DNA of 64,000 nt from an uncultured Oscillospiraceae bacterium (GTDB taxonomy: Bacteria; Bacillota; Clostridia; Oscillospirales; Oscillospiraceae). The stretch lies in the NCBI GenBank assembly GCA_947632175.1, contig CANROC010000001.1, positions 124,001-188,000 of the forward strand, read 5' to 3'. The notes under the pieces were generated by a model. The model saw nothing but the letters and a program-made list of their open reading frames with translations. It searched no databases and was not told where the DNA came from. The first letter of the stretch is position 1, and the number at the start of each line of letters is the position of its first letter. A program made the translations under genes and the position numbers. This document shows positions 4,495 to 58,783 of this stretch, one piece after another.

Positions 4495-4727
4495 ACAAAA
4501 AATCACCCCAAGCTGATGCTCAGGGCGAATGAAGCTCATCCGCGGTACCACCTGAATTTCCTCCCTCGGGAGGACACTCGCCGCTCTGTAACGGGAGCAC
4601 CCGTCGGGGACTACCTGTCACCCCCGCAGCTCCGGGACGACCTTTCAGCGGGAACCGTCAAAGCCTCGCACCCCCCGGCTTCTCTCTGCGACGCCCCTCC
4701 GCCTACTTCTTCCCCTCACAGCCATTT
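4495..4727 (-). promoter_or_regulatory. T-box leader upstream of valS
   Basis: The minus strand carries the T-box core AGGTGGTACCGCGG (complement of 4540-4553), then a terminator hairpin (arms CCCTGAGC and GCTTGGGG, loop ATCA; 4507-4526) and a T-run at 4495-4503. Upstream Stem I-like elements are present: AGAAGTAGGC, CAGAGAG and GGGTGCGAGG. A GTC triplet (GAAAGGTCGTCC) could be the valine specifier, but I could not fold the stem rigorously. Known mechanism: uncharged tRNA-Val stabilises the antiterminator and allows readthrough. Confidence 0.9.
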
Positions 4728-4733
4728 GCGGTC

Positions 4734-4762
4734 ATTATATGCGGATTTTCAAGCTTTGTCAA
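4734..4762 (-). promoter_or_regulatory. Consensus vegetative promoter of the valS T-box transcript
   Basis: On the minus strand TTGACA (complement of 4757-4762), a 17-bp spacer, then TATAAT (complement of 4734-4739). Both hexamers are perfect. Transcription would start near 4727, at the beginning of the T-box leader. Confidence 0.9.
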
Positions 4763-4779: not shown

Positions 4780-6820
4780 CGGTCCCCCAAAGGGCCCGCC
4801 ATTCCCCCGGCGGCGGGAAAAGGTTCGCGGCTTCGCCGCATTCTCTATATTCCCCGCCCTCCCTAACCTCCCCCCTGGGGGAGGTGGCGCGAAGCGCCGG
4901 AAGGGTCCGCGCCGCGGCGAAAGGTTTGCGGCTTGCGCCGCATTCTTATATTCCCCACCCGCCCGCCCCCGCCGCCGGCTTGCGATATTCGCCGTAGGGG
5001 TCGCCGTCCCCGGCGACCCGCCTATCGTTTATTGACCCGCCCCAATCAACGCCGTACGTGCCGCCGCCCACGGCGGCCCTTGCCCCCGATAACCGGGATG
5101 TACCGTTTAATCGGAACCGTTCCGTCCCGCAACGTGCCACGGGCGGACACACGGGTCCGCCCCTACGGGAAATAGGGAATGTTATTCCATTTAACCGACA
5201 TGGGAAATCATCGCAACGCGGGTCGCCGGGGACGGCGACCCCTACGGCGTTTATCGGGGGCAATCCGAACCCTGCAACGCGGGCCGCCAAGAGTGGCGGC
5301 CCCTACGGCGTAATTGGGGCGGATTTGTTTTATTGGAACCGCTCTGTCATCCAACGCTCGCTGCCCCCCTGCCCCCCTCCTACGAGGAGGGGGCTCCGAA
5401 ACGGGGGCGGTTGCGTTTTATCGGAATCGTTCCGTTATCGCAACCTCTTTTGCCCCTCCCTCCGGGAGGGGTGCCCAAGCGCAGCGATGGGCAGGGTGGG
5501 GGCGTCTATTTTACCGGCTTGCGTTATCCGCCGTAGGGGTCGCCGTCCCCGGCGACCCGCCCATCGATGATTGACACGTTTCGTACACCGCCGTACGGGC
5601 CGCCGCCCACGGCGGCCCTTGCCCCCCGATAACCGCCATGTACCGTCTAATCGGACCCGTTCCCGTCCCGCAACGTGGCACGGGCGGACACATAGGTCCG
5701 CCCCTACGGGGGATAGGGAATGTTATCCCATTCAACCGACATGGGAGGTCACCGCAACGCGGGTTGCCGGGGACGGCGGCCCCTACGGCGTTTATCGGAA
5801 GCAATCCGAGCCCTGCAACGCGGGCCGCCAGGAGTGGCGGCCCCTACGGCGTAATTGGAACAGGTTCGATTTGCCGGAACCGCTCTGTCATCCCACGTTC
5901 GCTTCCCCCCTGCCCCCCTCCTACGAGGAGGGGGCTCCGAGACGGGGGCGGGCGCGAATTTCCGGAACCGTTCCGACAACACACCTTGTAGGGGCCGCCA
6001 CTCTTGGCGGCCCGCCTTTCGTCTATCGACCCGTTCCGAACGCCGCCGTAGGGGTCGCCGTCCCCGGCGACCCGCCCCTCGTCTATTGACCCGTCCCAAT
6101 CACCGCCGTACGGGCCGCCGCCCACGGCGGCCCTTGCCCCCCGATAACCGGCATGTACCGTTTTATCGGAACCGTCCCCGTCCCGCACCGTGCCACAGGC
6201 GGACACATGGGTCCGCCCCTACGGGGGATGTGAAAGGTTATCCCATTTAACCGACATCGGAGGTCATCGAAACGCGGGCCGCCGGGGACGGCGGCCCCTA
6301 CGGCGGTGAACGGGGCCGGTTCAAAACAACAACGCGGGCCGCCAGGAGTGGCGGCCCCTACGGCGTTGATGGAACGTAATTGGGAAAATGTAGGGGCGGA
6401 CCCATGTGTCCGCCCGTCCCCCGTCCCCGCCGCGCGGGGAAATCAAAGAATGCGCCGCAGGCGCAAACCTTTTTAAGCCCCCTCCTCGTAGGAGGGGGGC
6501 AGGGGGGCTGCGAGCGTGGGACGAGAGAGCGGGTTCGATGAACGACCCACCTCATCCGGCACCTACGGGCGCCACCTTCCCCGCCCTGCGGGGAAGGCAA
6601 AGACGGGGGACGAGGGCTCGAATACCCCGCCGCCGCGGCGGCACCCCTTTTTCCGAAAAAGGGGTCGGGGGAATAAGGTTGCGGCGCTACGCGCCGCCTT
6701 TTTAAAGAATGCGCCGCAAAGCGGCGCAAACCTTTCAAAAAGCCCCCTCCTCGTAGGAGGGGGGCAGGGGGGCAGCGAACGTATGATACCAGCGCGGTCC
6801 CGATGAACGCGCCGGCCCGG
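4780..6820. repeat. Intergenic mosaic repeat block 2 (about 2 kb)
   Basis: No credible gene. The block tiles hairpin units in both orientations: GGGTCGCC-GTCCCC-GGCGACCC (4990, 5530, 6050), GGGCCGCC-ACTCTT-GGCGGCCC (5990), GGGCCGCC-GCCCAC-GGCGGCCC (5060, 5600, 6115), and GGGCGGAC-ACATG-GGTCCGCCC (5690, 6210). GAGGAGGGGG units lie near 5390, 5930 and 6490, and a CCCTCCCGGAGGGAGGG type occurs near 5460. Conserved linkers such as GAACGGTTCCGATAAAACGG and GGTTGAATGGGATAACCTCC, or close variants, separate them. Confidence 0.88.
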
Positions 6821-18394: not shown

Positions 18395-18423
18395 TTGACA
18401 AGCGGGTATGGGGCGGGTATAAT
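18395..18423 (+). promoter_or_regulatory. Promoter of antisense RNA, module copy 1
   Basis: Perfect TTGACA (18395-18400), 17-bp spacer, perfect TATAAT (18418-18423). It fires rightward, away from the decarboxylase gene, into a region with no plus-strand gene. Confidence 0.85.
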
Positions 18424-18429
18424 GAGAGT

Positions 18430-18570
18430 GGGCAAGGAAAGAGGGAGCGGCAGAACGCCTTCACCTGACAGCCTGGCCCGAGGATATCGAGTTCTTTATC
18501 TTCGCCGCAACAAACTTGTCACAGCAAAGATCAAAGACCGTTCGCTCTTGCTCAGCGGCGGTCTTTATCT
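18430..18570 (+). ncRNA. Candidate ~140-nt antisense RNA, module copy 1
   Basis: Runs from the +1 implied by the 18395 promoter to the hairpin at 18533-18566 followed by TTTATCTTTT. Segments TTCACCTGACAG, GAGTTCTTTA and GTCACAGCAAAGA are shared with module copy 2, but the reading frames are not conserved between copies, so it is called non-coding. It overlaps the end of the opposite small ORF (18552-18635). Confidence 0.6.
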
Positions 18571-18722
18571 TTTACTACCCGGACTTGGACGGTAAATCTG
18601 TATCCGTGGTAATGAAAGGTAAATGTAAAATACATCTACGCACCCCCTCCTTTCGGAAAGAGTGGCCAGACCGTCGTTTGTCGGTTCCGGCGCCTGCCGC
18701 GCCCTCCGTCCCTTGCGGGACT
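18533..18722 (-). ncRNA. Candidate small mRNA of the convergent module, copy 1
   Basis: From the +1 implied by the promoter at 18729-18757 to the shared hairpin (18533-18566), which is followed on this strand by TTTGATCTTTG. The leader is about 87 nt. It contains the SD-sequestering hairpin at 18641-18664 (arms CACTCTTTCC and GGAGGGGGTG, loop GAAA). Confidence 0.6.
18552..18635 (-). CDS. 27-aa conserved small ORF of the convergent module, copy 1
   Basis: Starts MYFTFTFHYHGYR and continues with alternating hydrophobic and polar residues to a basic end (KDKDRR), 27 aa. No transmembrane helix; the pattern suggests one amphipathic beta-strand. The first 12 residues are identical in copy 2 (32979). 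The ribosome-binding site AAAGGAGGGGG lies 9-12 bp before the ATG, inside a hairpin with a GAAA loop. Family not recognised. The context (own promoter, antisense RNA overlapping the 3' end) resembles type I toxin genes; toxicity is inference. Confidence 0.65.
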   Translation of the reverse strand: MYFTFTFHYHGYRFTVQVRVVKDKDRR

Positions 18723-18728
18723 GGACGT

Positions 18729-18757
18729 ATTATACCCTATGGGGCGAAATTTGTCAA
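18729..18757 (-). promoter_or_regulatory. Promoter of the small-ORF mRNA, module copy 1
   Basis: On the minus strand a perfect TTGACA (complement of 18752-18757), 17-bp spacer, and a perfect TATAAT (complement of 18729-18734). It faces the promoter at 18395. Confidence 0.85.
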
Positions 18758-31178: not shown

Positions 31179-32540
31179 ATGTGGTATTCCAAGAAAACCG
31201 GACGGCTCATCATCGTCTACGCCCTGGCGGCGGTGGCGGTCATGGGCGGCTTTTTGTGGCGGAGCGAGCGGGAAAAGACCACTCTTCGCCGGACGGTGGC
31301 GGTCGGGTACGACCACGCCTTTGTGGAGCTGGCCGACGCCGTGGGGGCGCTGGACGCGTCCCTGCAGAAGACCCTCTGCGCCGCCACGCCCACCATGGTC
31401 AGCGACCTGTGCGCCGAGGGCTACGCCCACTGCGCCGCCGCCTCCCAGGCCATCGCCAGCCTCCCCTACGGGAACATCGAGCTGGAGCACACGGCGGCGT
31501 TTCTGGCCAAGACTGGCGACTACCTCTCCTACCTGGGCCGCATGGGCGCCCGGGGCGAGGGGCTGGATGAGGAGACCAGAACGGCCCTGACGGCCCTCTC
31601 CGACAGCGCCGGACAGGTGGCCGGGACGCTGGCGGACCTGTCCGCGCGGCTCATCGCCGGGGACATCAGCACCGCCGAGCTGGACCGCGCCGAGGACGTC
31701 ATCGCCGGGGCGGAGGATAAGCTGGTGGACACCGGCTTTGCCGCGAGCTTCAAGGACATGGAAACGGACCTGCCCGAGATGCCCTCCCTCATCTACGACG
31801 GGCCCTTCTCCCAGCACATCGAGAGCCTGGAGCCCAAGATGCTCGCCGGCCTTTCGGAGATCGGCGAGGACGAGGCCAAAAGAGCGGGGGCCAAATTCCT
31901 GGGGATAGACGAAAAAAAGCTCACGGTCCTCTACCTCCGGGACGAGAGCGCCATGCCCGTCTACGTCCTCACCTGCCAGAACGGCAATGAGACGCAGACG
32001 CTGGAGGTCACCAAAGTCGGCGGCAAGGTGGTCTGGTACGGCACGGCCCGGGAGACGGCCGAGGGGGACGTGACGCCGGAGGAGGCCCTGCGCGCCGCCC
32101 GGGCGTTTCTCGCCGACCACGGCTTTGACCACATGACGTCCACCTACTACACCGCCGAGGGCGGCGAGCTCCTGGCCAATTTCGCCTACGAGCAGGACGG
32201 CGTGCTGTGCTATCCCGACCTTGTGAAGGTCTCCGTGGCCCTGGACACCGGCGCGGTCACGGGCCTCGAGGCCCGGGGGTATCTCATGAACCACACAAAG
32301 CGGGACCTGTCCGCCGCCGCCTTCGACCCCGACGCCGCGGCCCTCTCCCCCGCCCTCACCGTGGAGTCCCACCGCCCCGCCCTCATCCCCACGCCGGGGA
32401 AGAGCGAGGTCCTGTGCGAGGAATACCTCTGCAAGACCCCGGAGGGCAAGCACGCCCTCGTCTACCTCAACGCCCAAACCGGCGCGGAGGAGCGCATTTT
32501 GCTCCTGCTGGAGACGGATTCAGGGACGCTGACAGTATAA
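31179..32540 (+). CDS. ypeB: Spore germination protein YpeB
   Basis: 453 aa. One N-terminal membrane helix (about 9-27) anchors an extracytoplasmic protein. It has the YpeB hallmark PSLIYDGPFSQHI near residue 205 and C-terminal PepSY-like repeats (KAGAKFLGIDEKKLTVL-type and TPEEALRAARAFLADHGF). In Bacillus YpeB stabilises the cortex-lytic enzyme SleB, and the genes are adjacent; here no sleB-like gene is next to it. It is downstream of gltX across a terminator. Its stop codon touches the MITE-like element at 32541. Confidence 0.93.
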   Translation: MWYSKKTGRLIIVYALAAVAVMGGFLWRSEREKTTLRRTVAVGYDHAFVELADAVGALDASLQKTLCAATPTMVSDLCAEGYAHCAAASQAIASLPYGNIELEHTAAFLAKTGDYLSYLGRMGARGEGLDEETRTALTALSDSAGQVAGTLADLSARLIAGDISTAELDRAEDVIAGAEDKLVDTGFAASFKDMETDLPEMPSLIYDGPFSQHIESLEPKMLAGLSEIGEDEAKRAGAKFLGIDEKKLTVLYLRDESAMPVYVLTCQNGNETQTLEVTKVGGKVVWYGTARETAEGDVTPEEALRAARAFLADHGFDHMTSTYYTAEGGELLANFAYEQDGVLCYPDLVKVSVALDTGAVTGLEARGYLMNHTKRDLSAAAFDPDAAALSPALTVESHRPALIPTPGKSEVLCEEYLCKTPEGKHALVYLNAQTGAEERILLLLETDSGTLTV

Positions 32541-32799
32541 TACTAATATCTAATTAAAAGAAGCCATTCGCGGCGGTCTTTTTCGCGTCGTCGTCGCTGA
32601 ACACGCTTTGCTTCGGGCTCCCTTTGGTCGCCCTCAGGCGCTGTGTTCGCTCCTCCTCTCCCCGGCGGGCTTTGCCCACCGGGGACCCCGGTTGCGTCAG
32701 CCGCCTTGGAAATACCAATGGGTATTCCCTGCGGCGTCTTCCTTGCCTGACGCGAAAAATCCTCGCCGCTCGGTGTCTCCTTTTAAATAGATATTAGTA
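32541..32799. mobile_element. MITE-like element with ~50-bp imperfect terminal inverted repeats
   Basis: 259 bp. Left end TACTAATATCTAATTAAAAG; the right end, read on the other strand, is TACTAATATCTATTTAAAAG (19 of 20 identical). Weaker inverted similarity continues inward (GCGGCGGTCTTTTTCGCGTC against GCGGCGAGGATTTTTCGCGTC). The outer TA could be an IS630/Tc1-type target duplication. No transposase and no ORF of note inside. It begins right at the ypeB stop. Confidence 0.7.
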
Positions 32800-32803
32800 T
32801 AAA

Positions 32804-32855: not shown

Positions 32856-32884
32856 TTGACAAGCTTCGCGCGACGCGATATAAT
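32856..32884 (+). promoter_or_regulatory. Promoter of the small-ORF mRNA, module copy 2
   Basis: Perfect TTGACA (32856-32861), 17-bp spacer, perfect TATAAT (32879-32884). Confidence 0.87.
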
Positions 32885-32890
32885 GAATCT

Positions 32891-33090
32891 GCCCCGCAAG
32901 GGGTGGGAGGGCGCGGCAGGTGCTGAATCCGACAATACGACGGTCTGGCCACTCTTTCCGAAAGGAGGGGGTGTGTAGATGTATTTTACATTTACCTTTC
33001 ATTACCATGGATACAGGATCACCATCCAAGTCCGGGTAATTAAAAGATAAAGAAAAAGACCGCCGCTGAACCAGAGCGAACGGTCTTGTT
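32891..33090 (+). ncRNA. Candidate small mRNA of the convergent module, copy 2
   Basis: From the implied +1 to the hairpin AAGACCG...CGGTCTT (33056-33087). The ~88-nt leader shares CGACGGTCTGGCCACTC with copy 1 and contains the hairpin 32950-32973 (arms CACTCTTTCC / GGAGGGGGTG, loop GAAA), which buries the Shine-Dalgarno. Confidence 0.62.
32979..33050 (+). CDS. 23-aa conserved small ORF of the convergent module, copy 2
   Basis: Starts MYFTFTFHYHGYR, then I-T-I-Q-V-R-V-I-K-R and stop. It is identical to copy 1 through residue 13 and similar to residue 20. After that the frames diverge because of a small indel, yet both ends are basic. GGAGG lies 10 bp before the ATG. No hydrophobic helix; the strict alternation suggests a beta-strand peptide. 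Family not recognised. Two independent copies with conserved start, leader and promoters argue that it is expressed. Confidence 0.68.
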   Translation: MYFTFTFHYHGYRITIQVRVIKR

Positions 33091-33189
33091 CTTTGCTGTG
33101 ACAGTTTTGTTGCGGTAAAGAACTCTAAAACCTTCGAATTGGGCCAGACTGTCAGGTGAAAGCGCTCTGTCGCGCCCTCCCTTTTGTCT
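33053..33189 (-). ncRNA. Candidate ~137-nt antisense RNA, module copy 2
   Basis: From the implied +1 of the 33196-33224 promoter to the shared hairpin, followed on this strand by TTTTTCTTT. It overlaps the 3' end of the small mRNA, including the hairpin itself. Confidence 0.62.
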
Positions 33190-33195
33190 GGCTTT

Positions 33196-33224
33196 ATTAT
33201 ACCCTCCCGGCCGCTGTTTGTCAA
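33196..33224 (-). promoter_or_regulatory. Promoter of antisense RNA, module copy 2
   Basis: On the minus strand a perfect TTGACA (complement of 33219-33224), 17-bp spacer, perfect TATAAT (complement of 33196-33201). It overlaps nothing coding; the malic enzyme stop is at 33245. Confidence 0.87.
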
Positions 33225-52839: not shown

Positions 52840-54334
52840 GTATTTTTTAAGTAAAATAGAAATATTTTTACGCCCCGGCAGCTTCCGCCCCGCCCCCTTT
52901 CTTCGAACCCGCGCCGTCCTCCCCACGTTCGCTTCCCCCCTGCCCCGCCCTGCGAGGAGGGGGGCAAAAAAGGTTGCGCCGCTTTTGCGGCGCATTCTTT
53001 GATTTCCCCGCGCGGCGGGGACGGTGGACGGGCGGACCCATGGGTCCGCCCGTGGCACGTTGCGGGACGAAAACGGGTCCGATAAAACGAATCCGCCCCA
53101 TTTACACCGTAGGGGCCGCCACTCTTGGCGGCCCGCGTTGCAGGGCTCGGATTGCTCCCGATGAACGCCGTAGGGGTCGCCGTCCCCGGCGACCCGCGTT
53201 GCGACAACCACCAATATCGGTTGAATGGGATAACCTCCCACATCCCCCGTAGGGGCGGACCCATGTGTCCGCCCGTGACACGTTGCGGGACGGGGACGGG
53301 TCCGATAAGACGAAAATTGGTGGTTATCGGAGGGGCGGGTCGCCGAGACGGCGACCCCTACGGCGGTGTTCGGGACGGGTCAATAGACGCAACGCGGGCC
53401 GCCAAGAGTGGCGGCCCCTACAAGGTACGTTGTCGGAACCGTTCCGACAAATCGCACCCGCCCCCGTCTCAGTGCCCCCTCCTCGTAGGAGGGGGGCAGG
53501 GGGGCAGCGAACGTTGGATAACAGAACGGTTCCGATAAAACGAATCCGCCCAAATTACGCCGTAGGGGCCGCCACTCCTGGCGGCCCGCGTTGCAGGTTT
53601 CGGATTGTCCCCGATAGACGCCGTAGGGGTCGCCGTCCCCGGCGACCCGCGTTTCGATGACCTCCGGTGTTGGCTGAATGGGACAACTTTCCCCATCCCC
53701 CGTAAGGGCGGACCCATGTGTCCGCCCGTGGTACGTGGCGGGATGGGAACGGGTCCGATAAAACGGAAAATGGTGGGTATCGGGGGCCATGGGCCGCCGT
53801 GGGCGGCGGCCCGTACGGCGGTGTTCGGAACGTGTCAATCATCGATGGGCGGGTCGCCGAGACGGAGACCCCTACGGCGGTGTTCGGGACGTGTCAATAG
53901 ACGCAACGCGGGCCGCCAAGAGTGGCGGCCCCTACAAGGTACGTTGTCGGAACCGTTCCGACAAATCGCACCCGCCCCGTCACGGAGCCCCCTCCTCGTA
54001 GGAGGGGGGCAGGGGGGAAGCGAACGTTGGATAACAGATTGGTTCCGACAAACCGCACCTACCTCCAACTACGTTGCCCCTCCAGCGGAGGGGACAGCCG
54101 CGAAGCGGCAGGGGTGGTGACGCGGCGGCGGGGGCGGGCGGGTGGGGAAATCCAAGAATGCGCCGCAGGCGCAAACCTTTCCCCGCCGCCGCGGACCCTT
54201 CCGGCGCTTCGCGCCACCTCCCCCACGGGGGAGGTTATTAAGCTCCCCCCTGGGGCTGCGCCCGCAGGCGCGTGTCGGAGGCCAACCGCCCCGCAGGGGC
54301 GGCTCTTGGCGAGTCGCAGTGCCGCTTGCGGCGC

Positions 54335-56974: not shown

Positions 56975-58783
56975 TAGTATAGTAAAGTATTGACCGCTCT
57001 GACATCCCACGTTCGCTTCCCCCCTGCCCCCCTCCTACGAGGAGGGGGCGAAAAAGGTTTGCGCCGCTTTGCGGCGCAATTTTTATAAAGGCGGCGCGAA
57101 GCGCCGCAACCTTGTTCCCCTTGACCCCTTTTTCGGAAAAACTGCGCCCGCAGGCGCGCATCACAGCGCAACCGCCGCGCAGCGGCGGCTCTTAGGCCGG
57201 AAATGGGGTGGCCCCGCAGGGCCGGGGTATTCGAGCCCGTGGGGCGTAACTGATGTTTCCGGGAAACGAAACCTACTGCGTGCGGGCCGCCAAGAGTGGC
57301 GGCCCCTACAGGGCGCGTTGTCCAAACGGTTTCGATAAAACGAATCCGCCCCAATTATGCCGTAGGGGTCGCCGTCCTCGGCGACCCGCGTTGCGACAAC
57401 ATTCAATGTCGGTTGAATGGGATAACCTCCCACATTCCCCGTAGGGGCGGACCCATTGTCCGCCCGTGGCACGGTGCGGGATGGGAACGGTTCCGATATA
57501 ACGAAAATTGGTGGTTGTCGATAGGCGGGTCGCCGGGGACGGCGACCCCTACGGCGGATATCGCAAACCGGTGAAATTGACGCCCCCACCCTGCCCATCG
57601 CTTCGCTCGGGCACCCCTCCCGGAGGGAGGGGCAAAAAAGGTGCGTTGTCGCAACGGTTCCGATAAAACGGGCCTGCCCCCGTCCCGGAGCCCCCTCCTC
57701 GTAGGAGGGGGGCAGGGGGAAGCGAACGTGGGATGACAGACCGGTTCCGGCAAATCAAACCCGTTCCATTCACGCCGTACGGGCCGCCGCCCACGGCGGC
57801 CCTGCGTTGCAGGTTTCGGATTGCCTCTCGTTCAACGCCGTAGGGGCCGCCACTCCTGGCGGCCCGCGTTGCAGGGTTTGGATTGCCCTCGATGAACGCC
57901 GTAGGGGTCGCCGTCCCCGGCGACCCGCGTTGCGACGACCTCCCATGTCGGTTGAATGGGATAACCTTCCACATCCCCCGTAGGGGCGGACCCATGTGTC
58001 CGCCCGTGGCACGTTGCGGGACGGAAACGGTTCCGATATAACGAAAATTGGTGGTTGTCGATAGGCGGGTCGCCGGGGACGGCGACCCCTACGGCGGATA
58101 ACGCAAACAGGAAAAATAGACGCCCCCACCCTGCCCGTCGCTGCGCTCGGGCACCCCTCCCGGAGGGAGGGGCAAAAGAGGTTGCGATAACGAAACGATT
58201 CCGATAAACCGCGCCCGCCCCCGTCCCGGAGCCCCCTCCTCGTAGGAGGGGGGGCAGGGGGGAAGCGAACGTGGGATGTGAGAGCGGTTCCGTCAAATCG
58301 AATCCGCCCAAATTACGCCGTACGGGCCGCCGCCCACGGCGGCCCAGGTTTCAGGTTTCGGATTGTCCCTGATAATCGCCGTAGGGGCCGCTGCCCACAG
58401 CGGCCCGCGTTTCGATGATTTCCAATGTCGGTTGAATGGGATAACCTCCCACATCCCCCGTAGGGGCGGACCCATGTGTCCGCCCGTGGCACGGTGCGGG
58501 ATGGGGACGGTTCCGATAAAACGGTACATCCCGGTCAACGGGGGCATGGGCCGCCGTGGGCGGCGGCCCGTACGGCGTTGTTCGGGGCGTGTCAATAGAC
58601 AAGGGGCGGGTCGCCGGGGACGGCGACCCCTACGGCGGCGGGGGCGGGCGGGTGGGTAAATAAAAGAATGCGGCGAAGCCGCAAACCTTTTTCCCGCCGC
58701 CATCGAGCCATTTTTTCCGGCGGCATGTACGTCGGAAAAAATTCGCACGCATTCCCTTGTCTTTGAAGGCCGCAACGCGGCTT
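56975..58783. repeat. Intergenic mosaic repeat block 11 (about 1.8 kb)
   Basis: Convergent gap. Units: GAGGAGGGGG (57035, 57700, 58235), CCGCCAAGAGTGGCGG (57288), TCGCCGTCCTCGGCGA (57369) and TCGCCGTCCCCGGCGA (57909), CCGCCGCCCACGGCGG (57784, 58327), CCGCTGCCCACAGCGG (58387), GGGCGGACCCATGTGTCCGCCC type (57445, 57984, 58466), and CCCTCCCGGAGGGAGGG (57614, 58155). A TTTTTTCCG/CGGAAAAAA fragment of the palindrome element lies at 58709-58742. Confidence 0.87.

Follow-up and report, generated by a model that had tools for sequence, protein, structure and literature searches.

Small-peptide modules of Oscillospiraceae with convergent promoters and the anatomy of a type I toxin–antitoxin system

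A stretch of 64,000 nucleotides from an uncultured Oscillospiraceae bacterium, referred to here as the window, contains a 27-codon ORF enclosed by two consensus promoters that point at each other. A preliminary description of this DNA proposed a module resembling a type I toxin–antitoxin system and present in two copies. The locus raises the question of whether the peptide gene and the RNA opposed to it would act as toxin and antitoxin and, if so, whether they belong to a family that already has a name.

Layout of the two copies in the window

The pattern TTGACA-N17-TATAAT, with one mismatch allowed, occurs at nine sites in the 64 kb window, whereas shuffled sequence contains 0.03 on average. 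Seven of the nine are perfect, and four of these seven make up two face-to-face pairs. In copy 1 the promoter of the ORF mRNA (TTGACA-17-TATAAT) lies at 18729–18757 on the minus strand, and transcription would start near 18722. The mRNA carries a 5’ module (GGAGGGCGCGGCAGGCGCC, 18689–18707, minus strand), similar in the same sense to the 5’ module of the antisense RNA, followed by a leader element, CGGUCU (18668–18673, minus strand), that is complementary to AGACCG in the ORF end and terminator arm. Folding predicts a hairpin with a GAAA loop (18641–18665, minus strand) that buries the Shine-Dalgarno (SD) sequence. The ORF itself (18635–18552, minus strand, including the stop codon) has AAAGGAGG directly before it and, from its reading frame and coding selection, encodes a candidate toxin of 27 amino acids, MYFTFTFHYHGYRFTVQVRVVKDKDRR. 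A hairpin at 18533–18566 overlaps the last codons of the ORF and, from its sequence and the consensus of the main branch of the family, is read as a bidirectional terminator for both predicted transcripts. On the plus strand, a second promoter (TTGACA-17-TATAAT, 18395–18423) would drive the candidate antitoxin, a predicted antisense RNA of approximately 140 nt (18430–18572) whose ends we infer, with its own 5’ module (GAGGGAGCGGCAGAACGCC, 18441–18459, plus strand). The longest word common to the two 5’ modules of copy 1 is only 7, about the level of chance. The facing promoters, the 27-codon ORF and the common hairpin, the last at 18533–18566 exactly, were all found where the preliminary description had placed them.

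The second pair of promoters bounds copy 2 (32856–33224), which can be aligned with copy 1 over its whole length. The ORF, SD sequence and near leader of the two are almost identical, while the middle of the antisense RNA is divergent. In copy 2 a perfect promoter for the ORF mRNA (32856–32884, plus strand) is followed by the 5’ module (GGGAGGGCGCGGCAG, 32905–32919, plus strand), an ORF of 23 amino acids (32979–33050, plus strand) and the terminator hairpin common to both RNAs (33055–33087); the perfect promoter of the antisense RNA (33196–33224, minus strand) precedes its 5’ module (GGGAGGGCGCGACAG, 33167–33181, minus strand). The longest word common to both 5’ modules is 11. Relative to its relatives the copy 2 ORF has one extra T near its 3’ end, and because this single-nucleotide insertion shifts the frame, the KDKDRR tail is missing. 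A third close copy (C1:36715-37030) and a fourth, divergent member (C1:8501-8587) are found in the same genome. The two copies of the preliminary description are real, but a profile search showed such modules to be one branch, termed the window branch, of a large family.

Several other elements were seen in the window. A short inverted-repeat-type element (ends ATACTAATATCTA...TAGATATTAGTAT) at 32537–32802, just upstream of copy 2, resembles that found in two interrupted relatives described below (L019 and L025). A further perfect promoter at 4762–4734 has just downstream of it a T-box leader (4518–4728, minus strand; Rfam RF00230, 110.8 bits). Intergenic GC-rich repeats, lying in either orientation, are also dense in the window (43 direct families and 486 inverted pairs), for example at 5122–6530, 53026–53875 and 57769–58638.

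Distribution of the family

Of 400 genomes of the taxonomic family, 7 were matched by a profile of the window branch, some of them through distant relatives that have the leader and the convergent promoters in common with it. A broadened profile matched 77 of the 400 at E≤0.05, and 63 of these also at E≤1e-3, with two or more matches, up to six, in 28 of the 77. The order sample gave 20 of 394 genomes at E≤0.05, the weaker ones by chance; in both scans matches above about 1e-3 are mostly chance. At E≤1e-3, a class-wide sample yielded 1 of 321 genomes, the window's own, and a phylum-wide sample 4 of 329; besides the window's own genome these were three genomes not belonging to the class, one of which had six matches. 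At the eight places outside the class, an antisense promoter with at most one mismatch was present at seven and a sense promoter at six. A typical family member has the sequence MPITLTFHIFGYTITITVKSRNRHSAK. Whole modules stand in tandem, about 320–480 nt apart, at G187:C6, G305:C32 and G395:C1, with identical peptides in the first two.

Within the genus (34 genomes, the window's own included) a DNA match was present in 11, as close modules in six and as matches of about 20–35 bases in five; genomes G013 and G015 hold a divergent module detected by profile alone. When one genome was scanned for each species, 113 stretches fitted the pattern and 11 of them were confirmed, all from uncultured Oscillospiraceae ‘Lapin’ isolates, whose records are taken to be rabbit-gut metagenome assemblies. 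The cultured Vescimonas fastidiosa MM35, of human source, has four matching places in one record at a limit of E 10. At the best of these, which adjoins the polyribonucleotide nucleotidyltransferase gene, both promoters are perfect, with spacers of 17 and 16, and the PLSDB table, itself incomplete, lists no gene. One record matched among 72,556 in the plasmid collection. With the limit set at E 10, one query peptide matched 2 of 50,697 phage records, in one case along its whole length, and a human-faecal phage record holds a copy with four mismatches in the sense promoter and one in the antisense promoter. Thirty stretches from viral contigs contained no window-branch relative.

Convergent promoters are a property of the family

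A total of 107 ORFs were found, and the 101 with E<1e-3 were scored for promoters within at most 200 nt on either side. These 101 include two interrupted ORFs, one decayed ORF (L041) and at least one probable non-member (L090). A promoter on the opposite strand downstream, with at most one mismatch, was present at 93 of the 101 (74 perfect and 19 with a single mismatch). Reading that stretch on the ORF strand gave no perfect site, five with one mismatch and ten with two, and no site with zero or one mismatch arose in 505 shuffles. Upstream, a sense promoter with at most two mismatches was found at 68 of 97 ORFs (15 perfect, 35 with one and 18 with two), against 5 of 485 shuffles. The opposite-strand control upstream gave 10 of 97 (3 perfect, 4 with one and 3 with two mismatches), well above the shuffles; at five of these ten another member lies 297–686 nt upstream, and the sites are probably the antisense promoters of those neighbours. 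The promoter-like sites upstream of L105, L143, L100, L068 and L090, also on the opposite strand, have no family member upstream in the available sequence.

The outer edge of the antisense promoter lies about 90–120 nt past the stop codon in a typical member and about 150–175 nt past it in the window branch. On average the antisense promoter is closer to consensus than the sense promoter, which would fit a requirement for excess antisense RNA. An ORF of at least ten codons with an SD-like motif was found in only 1 of 49 antisense RNAs.

The ORF is under selection as a peptide

The ORF is under purifying selection, with dN/dS of 0.08 in the window branch (11 distinct sequences, codons 2–22), where differences are mostly silent, and 0.19 in the main branch (61 sequences). 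Frame +1 contains a stop in 12 of 12 window-branch and 64 of 64 main-branch sequences, and frame +2 in 8 of 12 and 12 of 64, respectively. For the 97 of the 101 members with an identified start codon, the peptide has a median length of 27 residues and a mean net charge of +4.4. The usual hydropathy criterion for a hydrophobic transmembrane helix, a 19-residue Kyte-Doolittle mean above 1.6, is reached by none of the 97 sequences. The hydrophobic moment is greater at beta than at alpha periodicity in 95 of 97, with a mean z of 2.2 relative to the shuffled sequence. The initial remark that the peptide is beta-like rather than a hydrophobic helix consequently extends to the 97 members, with the caveat that periodicity by itself leaves the peptide fold unsettled.

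The window branch comprises 12 uninterrupted ORFs (copy 2 included, with its short tail), two interrupted ORFs and one cut by a contig end. Homologues in which the ORF is broken and the RNA parts are kept, which the preliminary description had named as evidence against its reading, occur at 2 of 14 window-branch loci, both in genome G014. At these loci (L019 and L025) a short repeat element of one kind breaks the ORF close to its third codon; both keep a perfect antisense promoter downstream, and the sense promoter and terminator are readable. They are regarded as decayed copies because dN/dS is 0.08 among the 12 other ORFs (11 distinct). The inverted-repeat element stands at an identical place in both, from one insertion later duplicated or from a preferred target. 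L007 and L008, in two genomes, each have next to the module an additional tandem unit of promoter, antisense RNA and terminator that has no ORF, possibly an orphan antitoxin. From about base 1501, L024 (genome G024) has a promoter of this kind ahead of a small ORF of another, hydrophobic type, MIVAVLSVIGSICSILGLAVTVYSLYISTKKK, a candidate for a type I toxin of ordinary appearance; the layout at L026 in the same genome is similar.

A common terminator and a predicted hidden Shine-Dalgarno sequence

Across the 39 main-branch antisense RNAs aligned (A5), the terminator folds into 13 consensus pairs, of which six vary on both sides, and it overlaps the last codons of the ORF, which are of NRHSAK type in this branch and KDKDRR in the window branch. 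Alignment A5 holds 39 and alignment A6, of leaders, 40 of the 45 main-branch sequences. L031, L032, L128 and L102 were omitted from both, L112 and L131 also from A5, and L067 also from A6.

Pair tests were performed on the 65 of 101 loci that have both promoters with at most two mismatches and enough flanking sequence, reduced to 49 after removal of near-identical loci. In the mRNA the SD sequence is predicted to be folded away, with a mean pairing probability of 0.96, exceeding 0.8 in 46 of 49 loci, compared with a mean of 0.62, exceeding 0.8 in 46 of 245, when its surroundings were shuffled. Counted from the loop, the third pair is U-A in 19, C-G in 26 and U-G in 3 of the 49 predicted folds, counts that are biased towards pairing. 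RNAalifold, run on the 40 aligned leaders, returned three pairs, none covarying, and did not recover the SD hairpin. Evidence for this hairpin is accordingly that of single-sequence folding against shuffles together with the predicted pair types.

Usually 33–41 nt before the start codon, the leader contains an element, GGCGGUU or CGGUCU, complementary to AACCGCC or AGACCG in the ORF end. CGGY 28–45 nt before the start and RCCG in the last 36 nt of the ORF occur together in 64 of 65 loci, a count made without a chance control. The longest leader to ORF-end complement averaged 6.45 in cognate and 6.23 in non-cognate combinations for Watson-Crick pairs, and 7.08 and 7.11 with G-U pairs included. 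Since cognate pairs perform no better than non-cognate ones, locus-specific pairing of the two regions was rejected and a long-distance interaction is only suggested. In some predicted folds the leader element region pairs with the AUGCC of the start.

Same-sense likeness between the 5’ modules of mRNA and antisense RNA

A same-sense stretch is common to the leader of the mRNA and the opening 60 nt of the antisense RNA (GGCGYUGCC...GCGGUUNRGCC in the main branch). Over the 49 cognate pairs the mean longest common word is 9.53, compared with 6.62 after permutation (z 14.1). Because permutation mixes lineages, each locus was also compared with its three nearest relatives, which gave 9.53 against 7.09, the cognate pair being higher at 39, lower at 7 and equal at 3 of the 49 loci. 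Family-wide, the likeness of the modules therefore exceeds what common ancestry provides. Within the window branch alone (12 loci) the values are 9.58 and 9.28, with 5 higher, 3 lower and 4 equal, and the likeness is not locus-specific. It is likewise not seen in the promoter spacers (z 0.2), upstream of the -35 element (z -1.1), in the last 25 nt of the leader (z -0.7) or between leader and ORF (z -0.2). Transposon-like terminal repeats were rejected on the first two of these values. Selection on the RNAs, or repeated local template switching confined to this part, may have produced the likeness.

Pairing between the RNAs was examined over the same loci. The longest complement of the antisense first 60 nt to the leader is 5.41, compared with 5.58 permuted (p 0.95, 49 loci), and the duplex energy of the antisense 5’ part with the leader gives z -0.9, or z -0.6 nearer the start codon. 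Given this lack of locus-specific complementarity, simple pairing at the leader does not explain silencing of the start, and pairing through direct repeats in the style of par was not supported over the 49 non-redundant loci. Over the common terminator and the ORF end complementarity is full, because the predicted transcripts overlap there.

Relation to named systems

In Pfam, NCBIfam, PHROGs and PADLOC, none of the members scanned reached a cut-off or E 0.01 (best E 0.028), and in Rfam no module reached a gathering score. Matches below cut-off, all rejected, were to Glyco_hydro_65C (E 0.028–0.078), DdfA (E 0.15), phrog_4193 (E 0.13) and, in Rfam, c-di-GMP-I-GGC and two other families (E 0.38–3.5). 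No chain among solved structures matched at E≤10, the peptide string gave no match in a literature search, and no account of the family was seen in the literature searched, mostly open papers.

A weak likeness to YrzI (PF09501 / TIGR02413, Bacillus) extends over 12–16 residues (Pfam E 0.04 and 0.14; NCBIfam E 0.046), and YrzI was rejected on score, at 14.5 bits against a cut-off of 23 and 13.9 against 47.05. In eight genomes bearing the family, PF09501 exceeded its cut-off in none and its best place (E 0.084) lay elsewhere than a family member; of three sub-threshold places, one (G162:C26, E 0.41) falls on a family member.

The preliminary description compared the layout with txpA/RatA and bsrG/SR4. 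In layout the modules instead resemble par/Fst, through the common terminator, without its complementary repeats. The passages of PMC7472228 on par/Fst of E. faecalis pAD1 describe convergent promoters, a bidirectional terminator common to both RNAs, a short antisense RNA, a toxin SD sequence hidden in an intramolecular stem-loop, and direct repeats that make the two RNAs complementary. The modules described here have the convergent promoters, the common bidirectional terminator and, by prediction, the short antisense RNA and the hidden SD sequence. They differ from par/Fst in that complementary repeats are missing, the 5’ modules instead being alike in the same sense (9.53 against 6.62), and in that the peptide has no transmembrane-like stretch. 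No Fst-type family appeared among Pfam or NCBIfam matches of the scanned members up to E 10.

Three C. difficile type I pairs are described in the relevant text of PMC6563280 as overlapping genes in convergent orientation, and the toxins of txpA/RatA, bsrG/SR4, bsrE/SR5 and the C. difficile type as having a transmembrane domain. As far as those accounts go, txpA/RatA, bsrG/SR4 and bsrE/SR5 of B. subtilis and CD2907.1-RCd9 of C. difficile resemble the present family in a small peptide with a charged C-terminal end; by these descriptions they are set apart from it, as the family peptides have no transmembrane domain by hydropathy. The aapA/IsoA system of Helicobacter, in the portions of PMC6733600 and PMC8309996 that treat it, has a toxin of 30 amino acids with a basic C-terminal end, and an mRNA with SD-hiding metastable hairpins and a 5’–3’ long-distance interaction. 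Size, basic end and predicted hiding of the SD sequence are alike by description, but AapA1 is an alpha-helical membrane peptide by NMR (PMC8309996); a table legend in that paper also marks beta-sheet stretches. As judged from these comparisons, the modules belong to no named family, par/Fst failing on repeats and peptide and YrzI on score. The apparent departures from known families are two, namely the amphipathic beta periodicity of the peptide and the same-sense 5’ modules in both RNAs.

A type I-like module and its alternatives

At the level of sequence, the feature that marks a type I system, a peptide gene with a non-coding antisense RNA over the same DNA, is present. Convergent promoters, a hidden SD sequence, coding selection, a common terminator and an antisense RNA that rarely codes all support the original type I-like reading, and it is likely that the module works as a type I toxin–antitoxin does, in a family unnamed in the libraries searched. 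In such a mechanism the mRNA would be synthesized in a form that is translated poorly. The antisense RNA, whose promoter is closer to consensus, would pair with it first at the fully complementary terminator loops, and pairing would extend over the 3’ end of the ORF, so that the mRNA is cut or kept silent. If the antisense RNA runs short, the peptide would be produced and would damage the cell that makes it, probably at the membrane and in the form of a cationic amphipathic strand. The similar 5’ modules of both RNAs may contribute to this mechanism or to its folding.

A more specific proposal is advanced tentatively, as one we consider rather doubtful: a type I-like class whose toxin is a cationic peptide forming an amphipathic beta strand and whose antisense RNA carries a same-sense copy of the leader module as a decoy or strand-exchange partner. 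The antisense module might then lock or rescue a two-state leader, beyond antisense pairing, and likeness of modules within a locus might help pairs to tell themselves from paralogues. This proposal is weakened by the module likeness not being locus-specific inside the window branch.

The genomic setting of copy 1 bears on what the peptide is for. The gene adjoining copy 1, a putative decarboxylase from our reading of its ORF, matched in 30 of 34 genus genomes when used as a query, with long matches in 22. The other neighbour of copy 1 is also matched in 21 of these 22, the 22nd being at a contig end. A search with copy 1 by blastn, together with the promoter pattern, in the 430 nt before the gene placed a module there in 2 of the 22, the window's own genome and one sister, and it was missing from a relative 90% identical in that gene. 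A module beside a conserved gene in 2 of 22 genomes points to accessory insertion or loss at a fixed site.

Such presence and absence at one chromosomal site, the multiple matches in 28 of 77 genomes, the tandem copies and the occurrence of decayed next to intact copies are typical of addiction-type modules. They count against the peptide being a small regulatory, signalling or antimicrobial peptide that the antisense RNA, with the same anatomy, keeps at a low level, and a hidden SD sequence combined with an antisense RNA from a near-consensus promoter would be strong silencing for a mere signal. This explanation gains from the fact that we infer the toxicity of the peptide and that its members have no transmembrane-like stretch (0 of 97 above 1.6) and a beta moment mostly above the alpha moment (95 of 97); on balance we think it unlikely. 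An incidental ORF within a mobile repeat or a non-coding regulatory RNA pair would suit a repeat-rich window with scattered copies, and an ORF interrupted in two relatives and shortened in copy 2, but is very improbable given dN/dS of 0.08 and 0.19, the stops in frames +1 and +2, and outer ends without locus-specific identity (z 0.2 and -1.1), unlike the terminal repeats of transposons. That the ORF mRNA is an attenuator leader of the gene after copy 1, which lies on the same strand with a likely start codon about 190 bases past the ORF stop, is scarcely credible and disfavoured as a general explanation by the comparison of neighbours, as the next gene after copy 2 is on the other strand in the ORF list, the gene beside copy 1 has no module in 20 of 22 genomes, the next annotated gene in V. 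fastidiosa is on the opposite strand, and a downstream antisense promoter (93 of 101) is no part of attenuators.

If the type I-like reading holds, a self-poisoning module would be present in about one in six of the sampled genomes of the taxonomic family (63 of 400) and would have been missed by the curated libraries searched, probably owing to the small size of its gene, 27 codons. It would also provide a beta-type contrast to the helical type I toxins, and an RNA logic in which the 5’ modules are alike rather than complementary. The isolate Vescimonas fastidiosa MM35 offers a direct route to testing both the type of peptide and the logic of the RNAs.
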